From: Shewanella sp. NFH-SH190041
Lineage (GTDB): Bacteria > Pseudomonadota > Gammaproteobacteria > Enterobacterales > Shewanellaceae
Direction of reading: 5' to 3'
Length of the DNA stretch: 64,000 nucleotides
Assembly (NCBI RefSeq): GCF_024363255.1
Contig: NZ_AP026070.1
Coordinates: forward strand, 1,054,001-1,118,000
Under the pieces are notes generated by a model, which made no database searches, was not told the origin of the DNA, and saw nothing but the letters and a program-made list of their open reading frames with translations. This document shows positions 1-8,191 of this stretch, piece after piece; position 1 is the stretch's first letter, and each line of letters begins with the position of its first letter. The translations under genes were made by a program, and so were the position numbers.

Positions 1-671
1 GCATTACTTAAATCGAAGCGGATGATTGCACTGGAGTTGTTCTTTGAAAGCTCTTCTTCGTCTTCTGCCACCTCTTGCTTGTCAGCAGGCGCAAGCAAGA
101 ATGCATTGAGAGAGCCGTCATCTATGCCGGACATACGGGCGAATGAAGTGAATAGATCGGCAACAATATGTGGGATATCATCAGTTTTGCCATCTTCATC
201 TGATGAAAGGAGAATGATGCGGTTACCTGCACCGCCAATATACCCGCCATCCCGATAGAGTTGAACTCGACGCTTAGCTTCTCTATTGAATACTTTGGCA
301 TCGTCACAAAGAGGGTTGTTGCCATTTGCTCCTTTTGCTGTTGCTCGACGAAATACACGAGGTGATGACCAAATTTCGTTGATGATAATTTTATTGGATT
401 TATCACTCCAGTCTTCCGGATCACCAGTATGGAACATGGTGTTAAATCCGGTTATGTGGTCTGCGTCTGGGTGAGTAAGAACAAACACATCCACATAAGG
501 GCGACCATCTTCGTCAGTGTTCAAGCGCTCTCTCAGGCGCTCTTCTAAGTAGTTGTAGCTAGAGCCTGATCTCCTATAGCAGTCAATCAAGATCTTTTTT
601 TTATTTTTGGTGGTGATTAGGGTCATGTCACCGTTGCCAACGGGAAAAACCTCTATTGATGGTGCTGTCAT
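1..671 (-). CDS. ComEC/Rec2-type metallo-beta-lactamase-fold hydrolase, 3' end off the window
   Basis: The frame is open from an ATG at 671 to the left edge, giving about 223 residues and no stop. GGAG lies 7 nt upstream of the start. The N-terminus carries a VGNGD motif, then LIDC, then THPDADH at residues 66-72, which is the HxDxDH metal-binding signature of this fold. Near the window edge NNSSAII resembles the late strand of ComEC-type domains. No membrane segment is visible, so this is a free-standing domain and not the competence channel. The substrate is unknown; relatives are predicted phosphodiesterases or nucleases. It is the only visible cargo gene beside the GMT recombination genes, so a role in defence or offence is possible but inferred. 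Confidence 0.75.
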   Translation of the reverse strand, partial: MTAPSIEVFPVGNGDMTLITTKNKKKILIDCYRRSGSSYNYLEERLRERLNTDEDGRPYVDVFVLTHPDADHITGFNTMFHTGDPEDWSDKSNKIIINEIWSSPRVFRRATAKGANGNNPLCDDAKVFNREAKRRVQLYRDGGYIGGAGNRIILLSSDEDGKTDDIPHIVADLFTSFARMSGIDDGSLNAFLLAPADKQEVAEDEEELSKNNSSAIIRFDLSN

Positions 672-953
672 AAATGTGCTCCATAAAGAAGATGAGAGAA
701 GAATGAATACGTCGTTTGATATGCATATCAGACCATTAGAAAAAGTGAAATACAACTCTTGACAAATACTGATTTAAGGATGTTTTTTTGTTTTTAATCA
801 GCAACTTACGAGGCAGTAAGCCGTAATGAGTTTCCCAGCCTGATAGGTGTAATGGTGTTAGCTAAAGAAGTTGATTTGTTGATGCAGGGGGATGAAAAGC
901 GAAAAACGTGACCCACCTCACACATAAGATTTGCGGTTTGGTTGGAATTTATT

Positions 954-996
954 AATAGGTATCTGAGAGCACTGCTATGCAGTGCAGGTGCCTATT
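954..996. repeat. long imperfect palindrome
   Basis: GCACTGC at 969-975 pairs perfectly with GCAGTGC at 979-985 across TAT. The outer arms AATAGG (954-959) and CCTATT (991-996) also pair. A further ATAGG copy near 1010 repeats the arm. There is no T-run, so a simple intrinsic terminator is unlikely. A recombination site or structured RNA element is possible. Confidence 0.5.
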
Positions 997-1255
997 CACA
1001 TCCAATAAATAGGCAACTCTCACCGCGGAATTCCTAACAGGCATTACAACGAGGGGTGTGGAAACGACAGTAACGGATATTTGTATTACGAGACTGCTCG
1101 TTTATCTGAATGATGAGATGTGTCGTTATCTCGCTATACCAGCAACATGAATAGAAGAAATATTATCACTAACACGTTGGATAACTGACAGTTTTATGAT
1201 TGTAATCAATATTTCCGTGAACTGTGTTGAGAAGGTGGCAGGCGCAATTCCTGTT

Positions 1256-1373
1256 TTATCCGATTTAACGGGATAACCGGTTCATGTAAGTAACTTTGGG
1301 GCACTTCTGAGTCTCTAAGTGCCATCTGTGAAGGTACGGGACAGAAATGTGTCAGAGCGGATCGTCCTGGCAC
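1256..1373. ncRNA. candidate structured element: three successive stem-loops
   Basis: Stem 1 is TTATCC 1256-1261 with GGATAA 1271-1276. Stem 2 is GGCACTT 1300-1306 with AAGTGCC 1317-1323 (10-nt loop). Stem 3 is GTGTCAG 1349-1355 with CTGGCAC 1367-1373, including one G-T pair. All three fall within 120 bp of non-coding DNA. Whether it is transcribed, and from which strand, cannot be told. Confidence 0.3.
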
Positions 1374-1559
1374 GAGTTGGTAAAACTAAGCAGCCATTGT
1401 AGGGTAAGAGCACAATCCTTTTAGTCCATCAAAATTGTTGAAACACTAAAGAAAGTACTCTTTGCTTAAACTTACCCAGACGGAGTTTATCGGTACCACG
1501 TTCAATTGGTTCGGGAGTACTGTTGAGCTCGGGTAAAATGAATGTGTTTTGGTGAGAAT

Positions 1560-2234
1560 TCAAGATCCTTGCTTTTCGAGAAGTTTATTCAATACATGCA
1601 CATAGCCTCTGCGGTAGATCTCGTGCCCATATTTGTCTTTCACCTGCCCTGTTGGCGTTACAACCCATTCCATTGCCAGGATTTTTTCATCCGAAATGGC
1701 ATCTCGAATAGCTTCTAATTCTAACGGAGTCATTGCGCTATTTTGATGCTGTTTTTCACTGTCTAAGTGAGTATGAGATTGATTTATTGGCTGTGTTCTG
1801 TCGATAACGATATCGGCGTTTGCTTTGAGTACATTAAGTTGATCGCGGTATTTGTTTCGCTCTGCAATCAAAGAGCCGACTACGGCACGGATCACGGGAT
1901 CATCAATGGAATCGAGTATGTGCTGATCATTGCTGTTTAAAAGTTGCTTTTGCCTAACCGAGAGAGGCTTCTTACGCGTAGTTCCACTATACGCGGCCCA
2001 GGCATCTATCAATTGCTGAAAATGCTTACCTGTTCGATTACGGATGGTCTGAGTTGAGGGGCCACCTTGAGCTTTAGACAACCTACCAATAGTCACGATG
2101 GAAAAGTCTAACGGTTCGATTTGGCTCTGCTCAGCAAGTACGGCGCTAAGTGTCCTCAATGCCGACTCTGTGCGCGTTGTTGCTTGTGAGCACAACTCTT
2201 CAAGAACAATGTCCGGATGGATGAGTTCAGCCAT
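1560..2234 (-). CDS. gmtX: gamma-mobile-trio protein GmtX
   Basis: A 224-residue protein, the last gene of the minus-strand trio; its start overlaps the gmtZ stop by 8 bp, so the two are probably translationally coupled. The N-terminal 90 residues are helical, with a GRLSKAQGGPSTQTIRNRTG segment that looks like a small DNA-binding helix-turn-helix. The middle is basic and polar. The C-terminal part (EWVVTPTGQVKD, then YRRGYVHVLNKLLEKQ) looks compact. I see no catalytic motif. The name rests on position, size and company of two recombinases; its role in transposition, perhaps as a DNA-binding accessory factor, is inferred. Confidence 0.7.
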   Translation of the reverse strand: MAELIHPDIVLEELCSQATTRTESALRTLSAVLAEQSQIEPLDFSIVTIGRLSKAQGGPSTQTIRNRTGKHFQQLIDAWAAYSGTTRKKPLSVRQKQLLNSNDQHILDSIDDPVIRAVVGSLIAERNKYRDQLNVLKANADIVIDRTQPINQSHTHLDSEKQHQNSAMTPLELEAIRDAISDEKILAMEWVVTPTGQVKDKYGHEIYRRGYVHVLNKLLEKQGS

Positions 2235-4818
2235 TATCGTCTAATCCCTTCGTATTTTTTCCCGTTAAATCGGCAAGCCTTAGAATATTGATGCCCGTTT
2301 TAGTTTCAATGCCTTTTACTCCAGCCTCGAGTAGCCCTGCATCTTTCAGATATGCCTCCGTGTCTAAATAACCTGCAATTCGAGCCATTGCGCTGTATCT
2401 ATCCTGTTCACCAGTGGCGTTGAGCATCGCATTGACCATGGCATTGCCAGCCAACAACTGGGTTTCATCATCAAGTTGCAGTAAAAACGGCATATAACCC
2501 GATTTCATCAGCATATTGTTGAGCTTGTCACTGCGGTGAGCAATGGCGGTGGTTTTCCTGAGGTCGTCACGTAAATCTGTATAGAGTTCCGCATCATCAC
2601 AAATCTGAATCAGCTGCCTAAATTCGGACTCGGTATCCAAAAAACTAAAGAATGGCGAAATATCTTCTGGTGAGCCCAATGCTACTACTTTGTCTTTGGC
2701 ATCCCCCACCTCTCGCTGCTCTTCCAATGCCAATACTTTCCGGATGATCTGAAAGCACGCGACGAGATCTTTACAATATTCATCGGCATCGCTTTGTTGC
2801 CTTTCAAGGCGGCGCTCAAGCACATGCAAATATTGGTATTTAGTGAATGCTTGTCCATTAATTTCACAAAAATATTCTTCATCAAGTAGCAAGGATTGCT
2901 GCTGTTCGAGCTCTGCTGCTATTTTGGCTGACTCTGAGGCGTGATAGCTAAGGTTATTGAAATGCGCAGTTAACGCAGGTAGATAGCGTAAGTCTGTGAT
3001 GAACCAACGGCAGCGAACACAGTTTTCTAGGCCATGTGGTACCGGACCATAAAGATCCGCTTGATTTCGATTAGCTCGCTTTAGCCGCTCTCCGCCATTC
3101 CAACAACCAGGGATTGGGGTGTTCTCAGCTGAGGGTTGGGTATTGCCACCGGCTAAGCAGATCCCGATGGCTTTTTCTTGCCAACCTGCGGGGTTGCGAA
3201 CCCGAAAAATATTCTTCAACGCTTCCAAATCCTGATATGACGTCTGTAGCCCTATCGCTTCAATTGATTGAGTGGCAAGGAATGTTTGTAAACTCTGTTG
3301 ATCTTTTTCGGTAATCTTGTCCTCGGCCTGTTTCATCTTTCTAGCCATCATCACAGCACTAACTTTGGTGTAATGCAGTGTCATAATAAGACGACTATGT
3401 CCCACCAAAAGCTTTGAAAGAATGGGCGTTGGGATCTCGCCTTCGAGGGTATAACAGGTGATGAGCGAAACGCGCAGCGAATGAAGTGGAAATAGTGCCT
3501 TACGTGGATTCTTCGGATCAACAAAATGCACTTTGCCACCATCCGTTAAGGTGTGACCGGCTTTATAAACATCCTCTTCTAGCTTTCTGAGCAATTCAAG
3601 CCAGAGGGTACTGATAAACCCTGCTGTCAGGGGAAATGCTCTTTCTCGCTCAATTGGAGCGGATGCATTGCGAAAAAGAAAACAAATATTACCAATCTCA
3701 TCTCGCTGCGTTGTCGATTTGGTGCTGCCAAAGTGCTTGTAATCTAAATCATAGATTGAAGTCTGCTTGGTGATTGGATTGTACTTTTCTTGCCAATTGC
3801 GTAATTTTTCAAGCCAATACAGTACATCTTCATTCTGCCAAGGGATGACGTAACCTCGCGTGATTTCATCTTTGTTTCTATCGGCCGTTTTATTAGTATT
3901 GATGTACAAACCCGTCATGATATCACCGATGTCCGGCGTGACGATTCTGTGCATTGCACCTTTCCGCCATGGCCGTTTTTCATTGCCTTGAACAAAATCG
4001 TGTTTCTTGTTGGGCACCCATTGGCTACGCTCGTATCGCCAAGTATCCGCTTCGCCAGAATCTAACATTCGAACTTGATACGTCCTCAGTGGCAATTGCA
4101 GCTTCACAAAGAGCATCATGGCTCGCACTGGTGACCAAATCAAATGAAGCGATTCTCCCGCTTTGTAATGCTTTAAAACGCCATTGACTCGCATTGAACG
4201 ATCTTTATCAAGCTTGAACTCACGCCAAACACAATCGTGATCACTTGGGTCGATCATCGCTTTATCGACAATAAACCAATCTCTAGTATGTCTGCCGTTA
4301 AGCAAAAAAGCATCGGATTGTTCGATTGCCCAACACCAATCTGAAAAGTCTCCTCTTAAATCAGGACAAATTATTTTTCGCAGTTTTTTGATGTAGTAAA
4401 ACGGCAGAGTGTTGTAAACCGTTTCTTGATTGTTGATTGGATTGCTTTCTTTGCGGAACGGATTTTTAAACATCGGCACTGGTTCATCATTATCATCCGG
4501 CTGGGAATAATATGTCTCCAGTACCCAGTCGATAAATGTGCAAACCTCATTGTTTTGCCTAACTCGGTAACTCTCTGATAAATCAATTTTTGATAGAAAT
4601 TTATTGTAGTCCTGTGCGCCCATATCAAATAGCTCAACAGGGTCTGTAATGAATTGAGGCACTAAATACTCTTCCAGAAAACGGGTTAATGCATTCCGTT
4701 TATGGTCAATGCCGTATTTCTTTCCGTGCAACCATGTTGCCGCCAATTCACGCCAGGTCTCCCAACCAGAGCCATTATTTTGCGTGAACCAAGCAAATTC
4801 ATAATCGGTTGATCTCAT
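2227..4818 (-). CDS. gmtZ: gamma-mobile-trio integrase GmtZ (large tyrosine recombinase)
   Basis: An 863-residue protein. The catalytic core of a tyrosine recombinase is visible: candidate first Arg at R245 (LPLRTYQVR), box II HSLR at 446-449, VGH at H474 and the nucleophile candidate Y483 in HYTKVS. After this core lie about 380 further residues with a possible zinc site (C554, C572, C600 and C603 in the CVRC motif) and Glu/Gln-rich helices. That extension is far longer than in phage integrases and suits the large GMT or Tn554 TnpB-like recombinases. It sits 7 nt after gmtY and overlaps gmtX, so the three genes form one operon. It is presumed to act with GmtY on the island ends. Confidence 0.8.
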   Translation of the reverse strand: MRSTDYEFAWFTQNNGSGWETWRELAATWLHGKKYGIDHKRNALTRFLEEYLVPQFITDPVELFDMGAQDYNKFLSKIDLSESYRVRQNNEVCTFIDWVLETYYSQPDDNDEPVPMFKNPFRKESNPINNQETVYNTLPFYYIKKLRKIICPDLRGDFSDWCWAIEQSDAFLLNGRHTRDWFIVDKAMIDPSDHDCVWREFKLDKDRSMRVNGVLKHYKAGESLHLIWSPVRAMMLFVKLQLPLRTYQVRMLDSGEADTWRYERSQWVPNKKHDFVQGNEKRPWRKGAMHRIVTPDIGDIMTGLYINTNKTADRNKDEITRGYVIPWQNEDVLYWLEKLRNWQEKYNPITKQTSIYDLDYKHFGSTKSTTQRDEIGNICFLFRNASAPIERERAFPLTAGFISTLWLELLRKLEEDVYKAGHTLTDGGKVHFVDPKNPRKALFPLHSLRVSLITCYTLEGEIPTPILSKLLVGHSRLIMTLHYTKVSAVMMARKMKQAEDKITEKDQQSLQTFLATQSIEAIGLQTSYQDLEALKNIFRVRNPAGWQEKAIGICLAGGNTQPSAENTPIPGCWNGGERLKRANRNQADLYGPVPHGLENCVRCRWFITDLRYLPALTAHFNNLSYHASESAKIAAELEQQQSLLLDEEYFCEINGQAFTKYQYLHVLERRLERQQSDADEYCKDLVACFQIIRKVLALEEQREVGDAKDKVVALGSPEDISPFFSFLDTESEFRQLIQICDDAELYTDLRDDLRKTTAIAHRSDKLNNMLMKSGYMPFLLQLDDETQLLAGNAMVNAMLNATGEQDRYSAMARIAGYLDTEAYLKDAGLLEAGVKGIETKTGINILRLADLTGKNTKGLDDNG

Positions 4819-4825
4819 CCATCAC

Positions 4826-6289
4826 CTATCGAAATTTTGGGTATTTGCCCGCGAACAAACCATCAGGGTCGATATCTTCAAACCCCGCTTTCATGATCTC
4901 TTGCCAACTCAGTTCGACATCTTGTCGAAATATCGTATGTTCTTGCCTATCTAAGCGGGTCATTGCCTCTTCACACGCTTCTGTGACATCACGAATGCCT
5001 GGCTGTGTATAGACCGATTGCGATAACAGTGAAGCGTGATGAAGTGCTTTTTTGATCAGTAATGGATCAACTTTCGCATTCGATAACCGGCGTCCATATG
5101 CATGCCGGTGGGCATGTGGCGAACGGCCAGTTGGTTTAGAAACGGCTTGCTGTATTCGCGTCATCGCCGCTTTATAACTTTGATTAAACGCATTCAGCGT
5201 AAGTGACTGGCCGAGATGATGTTTTGAAAAACTAACAAATGCATACGGATGCGTTCGCTCTAATGGAAGTAAGAACAGCAAATATTTCCGCCATAGCTTT
5301 GCAAACAGCTCACCATAATAAGCTGGAAACCAATGCAGATGAATGAAATTATCACTGTCATCTACCACTCTGGTTTTCCAACCAATTCGCGCCGTGCCTG
5401 TTAGCTTATTGCGTGGTTTAAGATGATATTTCTCAGCTAAATACACCGCTCTTGTTGTCTGTCGCTTTCGACCTCGCCAGTTGTTTGGTGCTTTCCCATC
5501 TTCTGGGTGATAGAGCCTTACAATCACGCTGTTGATGTTTTCAGGATCATGAAAAACGTCATCAACCCACAAATGCAACGCATCGCTTTCTCTCACGCCA
5601 GCGCCATGCATCAATAACAAAATCAATTGGTCTCGTACTGCAACTCGCACATCTCTCGCAGAGCCAACACCATCGATAAAGAAAGACTTAAACAAATTTT
5701 CGGGAAAGGAAATGGCGTCACCATCGACTTTCAGTACATCTTGTTTTCCGCGCACTTTTCTGACTTTTTTGAGCATATCTGTCAGTGCGTTATTTTTGAT
5801 GTGACCAAGAAAATTATGCTGATTTTTTTTAAACCAAGCGGCGTAATTCAGACGTTCTTGATGACTTGTGGCTTGCTCAAATGGGTTGATGCTTTGGCTT
5901 TGGTTGTGGATCACCAACCAGTCGGTTAAACCGTTCAGTGATGAAAGAAGCTGATTCACGTTAGAGACTGATCGCGGCAACCAATAAAGCTGTGATGGGT
6001 CACTCCCATCCTTACCTATGGTTCCTGTCGATAGCTTTTGAACAAACGACAGAAATAATTTGCTGGGCTCTGAAAACAACCCTTTGTTCGCTTCCATATA
6101 TTCGAGAAGCAACTGACAAGAGAACACGACACGGTTCATCCAAGGAAGACTATTTCGGTGAGATTGACTGATGACGTAATCAAGTAGAGGTTCAAATACC
6201 CCTTGATGCGTCAACAAAACGGGAACTTCAAGAACGGTGCCTGAATGATCCGTTTTGATTTGAGCGGTGACTTTTACGATCCCAACCAT
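4826..6289 (-). CDS. gmtY: gamma-mobile-trio recombinase GmtY (tyrosine recombinase)
   Basis: A 487-residue tyrosine recombinase and the first gene of the trio, with an ATG at 6289 and no strong ribosome site. Catalytic residues are in place: R233 in GVRESDALHLWVDD, box II HAHRHAYG (H392/R395), H418 in LHHAS and Y427 in SVYTQP. An N-terminal SAM-like DNA-binding region precedes the core. The enzyme should cut and rejoin the island ends through a 3'-phosphotyrosine intermediate. The intact active site argues for a functional element. It lies at the outermost right edge of the island, next to short repeats at 6311-6328 that could be binding sites. Confidence 0.82.
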   Translation of the reverse strand: MVGIVKVTAQIKTDHSGTVLEVPVLLTHQGVFEPLLDYVISQSHRNSLPWMNRVVFSCQLLLEYMEANKGLFSEPSKLFLSFVQKLSTGTIGKDGSDPSQLYWLPRSVSNVNQLLSSLNGLTDWLVIHNQSQSINPFEQATSHQERLNYAAWFKKNQHNFLGHIKNNALTDMLKKVRKVRGKQDVLKVDGDAISFPENLFKSFFIDGVGSARDVRVAVRDQLILLLMHGAGVRESDALHLWVDDVFHDPENINSVIVRLYHPEDGKAPNNWRGRKRQTTRAVYLAEKYHLKPRNKLTGTARIGWKTRVVDDSDNFIHLHWFPAYYGELFAKLWRKYLLFLLPLERTHPYAFVSFSKHHLGQSLTLNAFNQSYKAAMTRIQQAVSKPTGRSPHAHRHAYGRRLSNAKVDPLLIKKALHHASLLSQSVYTQPGIRDVTEACEEAMTRLDRQEHTIFRQDVELSWQEIMKAGFEDIDPDGLFAGKYPKFR

Positions 6290-6310
6290 AAATCTACTTT
6301 GAACAAATCA

Positions 6311-6328
6311 GTTTTAGTAGTTTTAGTA
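6311..6328. repeat. tandem 9-bp direct repeat beside gmtY
   Basis: GTTTTAGTA occurs twice head to tail (6311-6319 and 6320-6328), 22 bp upstream of the gmtY start. It could be recombinase or regulator binding sites at the island end; chance in AT-rich DNA cannot be excluded. Confidence 0.4.
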
Positions 6329-6350
6329 CAATGAACGCTATAAATCTAAT

Positions 6351-6388
6351 AAAAAAAGCCAGAGTAAGAAACTAACCTCACTCTGGCT
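6351..6388 (-). terminator. intrinsic terminator, minus strand
   Basis: AGCCAGAGT at 6357-6365 pairs perfectly with ACTCTGGCT at 6380-6388. Read on the minus strand the stem is followed by seven T. It would stop transcription entering the island from the carboxypeptidase side. Confidence 0.7.
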
Positions 6389-6470
6389 CATAGCTACATA
6401 TAGTATAGTTTTATCTGCTATAGATATAACTTATGGGTTCAGCGACAGCGAATTAAGGGTAAACAAAGGC

Positions 6471-6512
6471 GGGATAACCGCTGGCAGTCGATTTACCACC
6501 AAGGGTTATCCC
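6471..6512. repeat. 9-bp inverted repeat, 24-nt spacer
   Basis: GGGATAACC (6471-6479) and GGTTATCCC (6504-6512) are perfect complements just downstream of the carboxypeptidase gene. It may be a weak terminator for that gene or mark the chromosomal side of the island junction. Confidence 0.4.
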
Positions 6513-6521
6513 TATATTGCG

Positions 6522-8003
6522 TTAAGCGTAACGTCGCGCCAGATGGGCCAGCAGGCTGTCGGCGGACAGTGCCTTGCCAGTAGCGGATAAGATTAATGCC
6601 TCTGTGCTCATCAAACTGGCGTGTTGCCAGATCCTGCGCTGCAGAAAAGCAAAGATGTCATTGATTTGCCCCTGTGCCAGCAGGGTATCCATATTGCCCA
6701 GCTGTTGTTCCAGTGCATCTCGCAATTGGGCGGCAATCATGGCCCCCAGAGTGTAACTTGGGAAATAGCCTAGCTCGCCCACGGTCCAGTGGATGTCTTG
6801 CATGCAGCCATCTTTATCATTGCCCAATGTACTGACGCCTAACATTTGGCTCATATTGGCATGCCAGAATTCAGGTAATTCGGCCACTGTCAGGTTTCCT
6901 GTCACCAGAGCCTGCTCGGCTTGGTAACGTAGCAGGATGTGACATGGGTAGGTCACTTCATCGGCATCAACCCGGATAAGTCCCGGGGTCACCCGACTAA
7001 AGCCATGTTGCAGTTGCTCTAGGGTAAAATGGGTTCCAAGGTGCTGGTTTATCAGGGGATGTAGCTGCTGTAAAAAGCCGTGACTACGACCCAGTTGCAT
7101 TTCAAAAAACAAGCTTTGACTTTCATGGACCGCCATAGAACGTGCCATGCCGGCCGGTTGGCCCTGCCATGTTAGCGGTAGCCCTTGCTCATATCTGGCA
7201 TGGCCAGTTTCATGTATGGTGCTCATTAACGCAGCACTGAAATCTGATTCATCATAGCGGGTGGTAATGCGGGTATCACCCGCGGCACCGCAGGAAAATG
7301 GATGGGAACTGCTATCCAGCCTTCCCTGATTAAAGTCAAACCCCAGCAGTGTCATTACCTGACGGGATAATTGCTGCTGTGCTTGAGCTGGATAGTGACC
7401 ATTAAGATGTACGGGCTGCTCATTGACCTGTTTTTGCTGAACCTGTTGGATAAGACCCGGTAATTGTTGTCGCAATGGGCTAAATAGCGCATCGAGCTTG
7501 GCGCTGGTCATGCCGGGTTCAAATTTATCCAGTAAGGTGTCATAGGGGGCTATGCCCAGCGCTTGACTGCGGATCTCTGCTTCTTGGCGTACTAAGGCGA
7601 TTACCTTTTCTAAATTGGGGCGAAAACCGGCCCAGTCATTATTTTGCCGTTGCGTGCGCCAGGCATGTTCACAGGCCAGCGCCGCACGGGTTTTGGTTTC
7701 GACCAGTTCAGCGGGGATCAATGTTGCCTGCTGCACTGTTCGAGTCATTTCCGTTAGATTGGCTCGTTGATTATCGGTGAGGGGCTCATCAGTGGCGGCG
7801 TTGATGGCTTCATTTAACCAAGGTGCCGTGCGCAGTTGATGAATATGACCACTGAGGCTGGCCATCGCTTCAGCCCGCTGTTGACTGCCTGCTGGTGGCA
7901 TCATGGTGGCCATATCCCAGTCACCCAGGGTATTGAAGTGTTCAAAATGGCTGATAGTGGCAAAATGCGCACTTAAACGAGCGTATTGTGTGGTTGTTGT
8001 CAT
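6522..8003 (-). CDS. M32-family metallocarboxypeptidase (thermostable carboxypeptidase Taq type)
   Basis: A 493-residue cytosolic zinc carboxypeptidase that removes C-terminal residues from peptides. The active site is complete: HETGH at residues 264-268, the third ligand in HESQS (E294), plus the M32 signatures SHPF (about 233-236) and DTRITTRY (about 243-250). I start at the ATG at 8003 because AGGA lies about 8 nt upstream; a slightly longer frame has no such site. Length is normal for the family. It is the first core gene beside the mobile island and diverges from the next gene, with about 190 bp between them. Confidence 0.93.
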   Translation of the reverse strand: MTTTTQYARLSAHFATISHFEHFNTLGDWDMATMMPPAGSQQRAEAMASLSGHIHQLRTAPWLNEAINAATDEPLTDNQRANLTEMTRTVQQATLIPAELVETKTRAALACEHAWRTQRQNNDWAGFRPNLEKVIALVRQEAEIRSQALGIAPYDTLLDKFEPGMTSAKLDALFSPLRQQLPGLIQQVQQKQVNEQPVHLNGHYPAQAQQQLSRQVMTLLGFDFNQGRLDSSSHPFSCGAAGDTRITTRYDESDFSAALMSTIHETGHARYEQGLPLTWQGQPAGMARSMAVHESQSLFFEMQLGRSHGFLQQLHPLINQHLGTHFTLEQLQHGFSRVTPGLIRVDADEVTYPCHILLRYQAEQALVTGNLTVAELPEFWHANMSQMLGVSTLGNDKDGCMQDIHWTVGELGYFPSYTLGAMIAAQLRDALEQQLGNMDTLLAQGQINDIFAFLQRRIWQHASLMSTEALILSATGKALSADSLLAHLARRYA

Positions 8004-8191
8004 GGCTAACATCCTGAAAAACTAGCTAAATCGATATGATATTGTCCGCAGCCGTTGTGGCATGAGCGCCAGTGTAGCACAGGGACAGCTCTGGCAAATG
8101 TGTGCTGAATTGCTCCCCATGGTTGTAAGTGCTGACAGTTTTTTAACTGATAGGGTAAAATCACCCTCCCTGTGTAACGTCCTGACATTTT

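Follow-up and report, generated by a model that had tools for sequence, protein, structure and literature searches.

We analysed a 64,000 bp stretch of the Shewanella sp. NFH-SH190041 chromosome (G000:C1:1054001-1118000, contig C1 of genome G000), here called the window. Close to its left edge are three genes, gmtY, gmtZ and gmtX, diagnostic of Gamma-Mobile-Trio (GMT) islands, a group reportedly first described by Mahata et al. (2024, Nat Microbiol, doi 10.1038/s41564-024-01840-5). Positions below refer to the window or, where prefixed C1, to the contig. The trio is arranged as follows.

Window 4826-6289, minus strand: gmtY, tyrosine recombinase of 487 aa (NF040693), the gene nearest the right end of the island
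Window 2227-4818, minus strand: gmtZ, large tyrosine recombinase (Integrase_2, PF13009) of 863 aa (NF047926)
Window 1560-2234, minus strand: gmtX, encoding the third and small member of the trio, 224 aa (NF040692)

The genes are co-directional and contiguous; by open reading frame (ORF) coordinates, gmtY and gmtZ are 7 bp apart and gmtZ overlaps gmtX by 8 bp. Each product scored above the curated NCBIfam cut-off: 541.9 bits for GmtY against NF040693 (cut-off 340), 1015.5 bits for GmtZ against NF047926 (cut-off 600) and 214.5 bits for GmtX against NF040692 (cut-off 40). GmtZ also matched PF13009 with 321.5 bits, and GmtY has a catalytic domain of the XerC/XerD type. An initial annotation, made from the DNA letters, had placed a GMT trio at these positions and named ten catalytic residues. 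The positions, the identity of the trio and the residues were all confirmed. The latter are R233, H392, R395, H418 and Y427 in GmtY, and R245, H446, R449, H474 and Y483 in GmtZ. When GMT loci of the genus are aligned, the five GmtZ residues are invariant (13 of 13 rows), as are four of the five in GmtY (17 rows); H418 is found in 16 of the 17, with Q in G097. A DNA search found the trio once in its own genome.

The trio marks one end of an island

The ends of the island, and the host genes either side, are listed from left to right.

C1:1048129-1048512: GNAT gene, left of the island
C1:1048677 onwards, outside the window: left-end partner of an imperfect inverted repeat
Window 6358-6387, minus strand: terminator-like hairpin within the island end, upstream of gmtY, recognised by eye, with a run of T behind it on the minus strand
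Window 6401-6429: right (gmtY-proximal) island end, half of the inverted repeat
Window 6430-6435: predicted host 6 bp core, CTTATG, from the 6 bp rule in eight related islands (below) and alignment of the island's own ends
Window 6522-8012, minus strand: host-flank gene, right of the island, for what we take to be an M32 carboxypeptidase

We read 40 kb leftwards of the window. The island extends over G000:C1:1048677-1060429 (11,753 bp), with its right end at window 6429; the exact ends are predictions from the 6 bp rule. It sits in the GNAT-M32 gap of the Shewanella chromosome, because GNAT and M32 genes adjoin in 28 of 29 related loci, spaced by 19-506 bp. Note that these loci are the 29 best-scoring of 88 matching relatives, the other 59 being outside the count. 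The right flank was matched in 89 of 129 genus genomes, our own included. In the exception (G020, locus L007), another gene adjoins M32 instead of GNAT, and there is no GMT match. By eye, the gene in question (G020:C2, about 508.6-512.7 kb) is flotillin-like. Hence, the trio had been correctly read as one end of an island: the GMT profiles match, and the relatives' locus is without the insertion.

The island ends pair with each other. In a blind scan, 30 probes from the gmtY-side end were compared with all downstream sequence and with five shuffles. The best inverted match to the right end was at C1 ~1048680 (score 37, against 27 for the best shuffle). Furthermore, the closest other island, that of Shewanella surugensis (G120, L057), which we refer to as the sister island, has the same layout and aligns with ours at both ends.

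The hairpin at window 6358-6387 could block read-through from outside. A similar hairpin is at the same place in all four islands of loci L053-L056 (by eye). Rfam models matched nothing in C1:1048000-1054000 and, in window 1-7000, gave two snoRNA matches only, far below gathering scores. A scan of the window found no tRNA. On the left, the GNAT gene matches its relatives over residues 1-88 only and a gene for an IS3-type transposase adjoins it (both within G000:C1:1046948-1048512; L004 12948-14512). This insertion sequence, rather than the GMT island, probably broke the GNAT gene.

Related islands leave a 6 bp footprint

Both junctions were read in eight related islands. The native host bases come from the greB reading frame in seven cases and, for G112, from an empty site in G054. 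The 6 bp blocks are shown below.

G044: gmtY side TACACC, far side AATGAA
G016: gmtY side TACACT, far side AAAGCG
G011: gmtY side TACAAA, far side TGCAGG
V. pectenicida: gmtY side TATCAC, far side TCTGAG
A. haemolyticus: gmtY side TATCAA, far side TATCAA
Pseudomonas PSB18: gmtY side TACACC, far side TGGGAG
Pseudomonas 3H7: gmtY side TACACC, far side TACAAG
G112: gmtY side CAGTTA, far side AGCACT

In all eight, the gmtY side keeps the native host 6 bp. The far-side 6 bp differ from these in seven. Our literature search, with the founding GMT paper outside its range, found no described insertion rule for GMT islands.

For the island in the window, the rule predicts CAATGT as the far-side 6 bp. 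The empty site of its own species is predicted to read TGTCGCTACAAG-CTTATG-GGTTCAGCGACA. In this predicted site the 12 bp arms are alike at 8 of 12 positions, centred on the 6 bp. When the centre is shifted by between -20 and +20, just one further register (+18) gives as many as 6 of 12. Arms of the sister site agree at 7 of 12 in one register; the site is AT-rich and this figure is uncontrolled. The arm symmetry may derive from chance. We rejected a shared target for the two islands: their arms score 8 and 7 of 12, yet the sequences differ. Hairpin folding of the predicted empty site is marginal, with 3.8% of 500 shuffles as stable.

GmtY clades and insertion sites

GmtY passed its cut-off in 16 of 129 genus genomes and in 3 of 369 genomes evenly sampled from the class, our own included each time. 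Reading outward from gmtY, insertion sites repeat among islands. In the GmtY tree, the rows for islands in greB (seven), in terminators (four) and in a radical-SAM gene (two) each form one clade, with starred support. Our island and its sister are placed next to the terminator clade. The GmtY clades thus appear to match three targets: codon 48 of greB, the loops of terminator hairpins and the radical-SAM gene. Islands in G010 and G097 were assigned to no site.

The terminator clade comprises four islands (L053-L056), with GmtY about 46% identical to our own. Host bases followed by TTATATATAGTAAC mark the end of each, and half of what, by eye, is an intrinsic terminator lies alongside. Empty sites were compared for three, with G091 left out. 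G054 has the empty site for G112, in the form of a perfect bidirectional terminator hairpin; the flanks are 96-97% identical and the island, read at both junctions, is in the loop. The site of the G043 island corresponds to a terminator in G017, G018 and G005 (94-95%), with the loop cut on the gmtY side, the one junction read. For G053, the comparison was with G011, which is more distant (76%) and has a terminator at the matching place. In these islands gmtX is followed by genes for a VPA1267-family protein and a RecD2-like helicase (family search for those of G091, homologues in the other three). Our own subclade, which includes the S. surugensis island, is without them.

The two radical-SAM islands, in G039 (L058) and G072 (L063), cut their gene near its start, after about 36 codons. 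A search with these first 36 residues found no closely similar second copy in either genome, and the same peptide had no match in our own genome. Since this pair shows none by that search, we gave up the notion of a replacement copy in all GMT islands that break a gene.

GmtZ proteins of the greB and radical-SAM clades are long (910-1504 aa among those seen; for example L121 133-4266, L059 3169-6450 and L064 3356-7870). An N-terminal repeated unit is frequent, of about 115 aa in L121, and some assemblies break within such repeats.

One clade cuts greB and carries a second copy

The greB gene encodes a transcript-cleavage factor. Seven islands of the genus lie in greB, and in all of them the insertion point is the first base of codon 48. 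Four of the seven are in one piece and have a complete second greB 20-21 bp behind gmtX; for the other three, the order gmtZ-gmtX-greB is found on another contig. The greB gene scored over the cut-off in 127 of 129 genus genomes, and all eight with a broken greB (the seven and G042) have one intact copy. G064 was dropped as a case of an island-split greB; both greB parts are adjacent, with no trio match. In the eighth genome, G042 (L122, G042:C12:14000-30000), a GMT island in greB has gmtZ, gmtX and an intact greB, without gmtY, and the host greB is still cut.

We then scanned GTDB representative genomes with one greB-clade GmtY query. This gave 29 loci (L155-L183), among them ten from Acinetobacter, six from Shewanella, two each from Vibrio, Methylomonas and Pseudomonas, and one from a metagenome bin. 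Photobacterium, Salinimonas, Aestuariicella, Pseudoalteromonas, Oceanisphaera and Stutzerimonas gave single loci. Note that the two samples overlap: the six Shewanella loci are six of the seven genus islands. All three trio proteins are above their cut-offs in one Acinetobacter, as is GmtY of Vibrio, Methylomonas and Pseudomonas. At 27 of the 29 loci, spanning ten named genera and the metagenome bin, greB is cut on the gmtY side at the identical base, with the end motif of the element against codon 48. In two Acinetobacter loci (L181, L182), 1-2 kb lies between the island end and gmtY.

Each of the 27 genomes with a cut greB also contains an intact one. It is in view in 22 cases, on another contig in three and deeper inside the island in two (both Pseudomonas). 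The fetched stretch included a full-length greB at 23 of the 29 loci, and all 23 are open frames of 156-168 aa with no stop. The start is 3-26 bp behind the gmtX match in 19. The remaining four are 76, 296, 445 and 2754 bp from gmtX, the last on the opposite strand. In A. junii, gmtX itself appears to be broken.

At all 22 loci where both could be compared, the island greB differs less from the copy of some other island than from the fragment left in its host. Three of 23 island copies, however, have a closer match in the host greB of a different species than among the island copies. On the tree, island and host greB do not fall into two clean clades, and six changes are needed. The islands have probably acquired greB more than once.

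Two loci have other arrangements. Stutzerimonas combines an intact greB of the host with a further copy of the island type; its gmt contig ends early, and no cut greB is beside gmtY. In Methylomonas LW13 (L208, L211) the island is elsewhere. Its own greB is frameshifted at the 6 bp core (G500:C1:2072100-2073100), and the genome's GMT island, with an intact greB, stands next to a short hairpin at a distance of about 1.4 Mb. The frameshifted gene looks like an excision scar.

Judged by sequence, islands of this clade break greB while bringing what appears to be a replacement. No account of greB as a GMT insertion site, or of greB replacement by GMT islands, was found in the literature outside the founding GMT paper, which the search did not take in.

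Cargo between the trio and the far end

The remainder of the island has the features listed here.

Window 1-671 (5' part; whole gene G000:C1:1053466-1054671), minus strand: MBL-fold gene (NF058524)
C1:1051683-1053473, or from 1053530, minus strand: E2-E1 gene
C1:1051208-1051711, minus strand: JAB gene
C1:1050703-1051218, minus strand: gene for a membrane protein of 171 aa (membrane nature by eye)
Window 979-1037, plus strand: 59 bp direct repeat, 90% identical to G000:C1:1050449-1050507 in a self-comparison
C1:1049618-1050172, plus strand: serine resolvase gene
C1:1048775-1049509, minus strand: gene of 244 aa, without family

The cargo operon consists of four genes, encoding the E2-E1, JAB, MBL and membrane proteins, on the same strand as the trio. 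The MBL protein matched NF058524 (6A-MBL_enzyme) over its full length with 323.9 bits (cut-off 220). Using PADLOC, we obtained 381 bits with the E1-E2 model and 141 bits with the JAB model. Against the model for a fused Cap2-Cap3, the JAB protein scored 52.9 bits, below the cut-off of 320. Relatives of the E2-E1 protein (n=13) are 66-84% identical and near-equal in length, some being from Photobacterium and Thaumasiovibrio. Those of the membrane protein are in Vibrio, Aeromonas and Photobacterium. The initial annotation had expected cargo to continue left of the window, where an undescribed system seemed most likely. Cargo is indeed there. The second part did not hold up; with the MBL protein above the 6A-MBL cut-off, the operon has the look of a split-gene variant, recurring and mobile, of a kind of defence already catalogued. 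By family, it probably conjugates a protein for anti-phage defence.

Two copies of the 59 bp repeat flank the four genes, and our guess is that they helped the operon to enter. Between gmtX and the cargo, 800 bp (window 756-1559) are free of genes and resemble remnants of small repeats. Pieces reappear at C1:2079945-2080000 and in G020, G055, G091 and G101. The 59 bp repeat and this stretch were considered as island ends and rejected, giving weak, scattered matches in five of 129 genus genomes, our own among them.

At the far end, the 244 aa protein has two relatives outside its own genome among about 5.8 billion proteins searched, one of them in S. surugensis. The sister island has the same divergent pair, resolvase and 244 aa protein, by its far end (67.6% and 55%). 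Its cargo differs, consisting of a pair of neighbouring genes for proteins of 576 and 571 aa (L057 7469-10911). Neither product matched Pfam, NCBIfam or PHROGs, and they are a candidate for an undescribed pair. Since the far-end pair is shared and the cargo is not, the core of this subclade would be gmtYZX at one end and the resolvase and 244 aa genes at the other. Going by these two islands, cargo may be exchanged in between.

Further left, G000:C1:1034024-1042520 (L004 24-8520) has two sets of large repeat proteins, of 775 and 741 aa. By eye they are Sel1-like, with a J-domain-like start. Each is beside a gene of 255-272 aa, and one set includes an Hsp70-like gene.

A model for insertion and its alternatives

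In the account that we consider highly probable, the three genes form the recombination module of the GMT island, which is about 11,753 bp long and inserts in the mode of Tn554 and of strand-biased circularizing integrative elements (SEs), with exchangeable cargo, sites bound to GmtY clade and, in one clade, replacement of greB. GmtY and GmtZ, with GmtX as accessory, would join the inverted-repeat ends and exchange strands across the 6 bp core. As seen in relatives, the gmtY side would retain the 6 bp of the host, and the far side would receive 6 bp brought along from an earlier site. The process would probably run via a circular intermediate made from one strand, with GmtX perhaps in the part of TnpC or Srap. 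Cargo between the trio and the far end would be exchangeable, and site choice would be set by GmtY clade. The island in the window may still be mobile, as the initial annotation supposed.

Several points weigh against this account. The control for the blind scan recovered two of four known far ends (L055 and L060, with L059 and L057 missed). In a looser alignment of both whole flanks of our island, 24 of 2000 shuffles were equally good. We chose six as the spacer length by eye, on lining up the inverted ends. The identical blocks of A. haemolyticus fit the 6 bp rule and discriminate nothing. For our island, the 6 bp and the exact ends are predicted from the rule. The single-stranded, circular intermediate is suggested by analogy, and GmtX would be the counterpart of TnpC or Srap by role. 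Finally, the E2-E1 protein scored 64.6 bits against the fused Cap2-Cap3 model, below the cut-off of 320.

Other explanations can be set against the same data. The trio might be an integrase with helpers, in an ordinary island that excises and integrates conservatively between identical direct repeats, like phages and ICEs. The XerC/XerD-type domain of GmtY and the site-specific insertion would suit this. However, the ends have inverted rather than direct repeats, and the 6 bp blocks differ in seven of eight islands. Nor is there a conjugation gene among island ORFs of at least 90 aa, a small Xis-like gene being outside that size range. We regard an ordinary integrase island as improbable. An inert relic, with an intact but immobile trio and cargo kept for its own sake, is somewhat easier to entertain and still unlikely. 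The single copy in the genome, the gene-free, repeat-like 800 bp that separate gmtX from the cargo, and the neighbouring GNAT gene, matched over residues 1-88 and beside an IS3-type gene, all fit this view. Conversely, three reading frames are intact with their catalytic residues, the ends are paired, and the sister island combines the same core with different cargo.

For the greB clade, the second greB could be chance cargo and the broken gene a coincidental hot spot, with no replacement. Replacement is no general rule, given that the radical-SAM islands of G039 and G072 show no closely similar second copy of the start of the broken gene. Stutzerimonas, with an intact host greB beside its island-type copy, and the three of 23 copies closest to a foreign host greB, also fit such a view. 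It is hard to reconcile with an intact greB in 27 of 27 genomes cut at codon 48, with 23 of 23 copies in view being open (156-168 aa) and 19 of these starting 3-26 bp behind gmtX, or with 22 of 22 comparable copies being nearer to another island's than to the host fragment. Coincidence is thus the least probable of the alternatives. Replacement of greB remains our preferred reading.

A broader proposal joins these strands, and we offer it tentatively, at rather less than even chances. GMT islands would be Gram-negative elements of the Tn554/SE type with targets wired to clade. The greB clade would cut greB at codon 48 throughout the Gammaproteobacteria and supply greB as a fourth gene of its own operon; the host's working GreB would become that of the island, and island loss would be costly. 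The terminator clade would enter hairpin loops, possibly by recognising a folded single strand.

GMT islands spread genes for anti-phage defence and type VI secretion. With the 6 bp rule and the clade-specific sites, the ends of islands and their cargo could be located in any raw genome, and the empty site could be predicted. If true, an element that seizes a transcription factor gene in many genera has an unusual way to resist loss. The greB site would also provide a simple laboratory assay for the GMT family.

Comparison with known systems

Papers citing the founding work describe GMT islands, in the parts consulted (PMC12039261, PMC12715929). Ours has the three diagnostic proteins above NCBI cut-offs and cargo of the anti-phage type. 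Unlike islands of the terminator clade, its subclade has the resolvase and 244 aa genes at the far end. Compared with the 6A-MBL system (NCBIfam NF058523/NF058524), of which our MBL protein is a member, Cap2-Cap3 is not fused here: E2-E1 and JAB are separate, and a 171 aa membrane protein is added. Our literature search found no paper on the 6A-MBL system.

In the parts of PMC10214605 consulted, SEs are defined by a split attB that is kept, imperfect inverted repeats and a 6 bp spacer, and Tn554-related elements have the same footprint. This footprint is found in all eight related GMT islands and, for our own, is predicted. SEs are further marked by strand bias and by the lack of an empty site after recombination. 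They have four core genes, intA-tfp-intB-srap, whereas our gmtY and gmtZ have just 7 bp, and neither tfp nor any other gene, between them. Hence, the island is not an SE. The Tn554 family, according to the sections seen of PMC10214605 and PMC12486829, has two tyrosine recombinases, a small protein and a footprint of 6 or 7 bp. GMT islands share this three-gene layout and footprint, the two features on which we liken them; hosts and targets differ. The same sections propose a circular intermediate for SEs and for Tn552-II. The latter, a Gram-positive element, contains a gene homologous to the one that it disrupts, and rescue is mentioned (PMC12486829, in part). Therefore, the replacement trick is already known in a Gram-positive element. 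To the picture of GMT islands, our comparisons would add the 6 bp footprint, the clade-bound targets and the replacement of greB.

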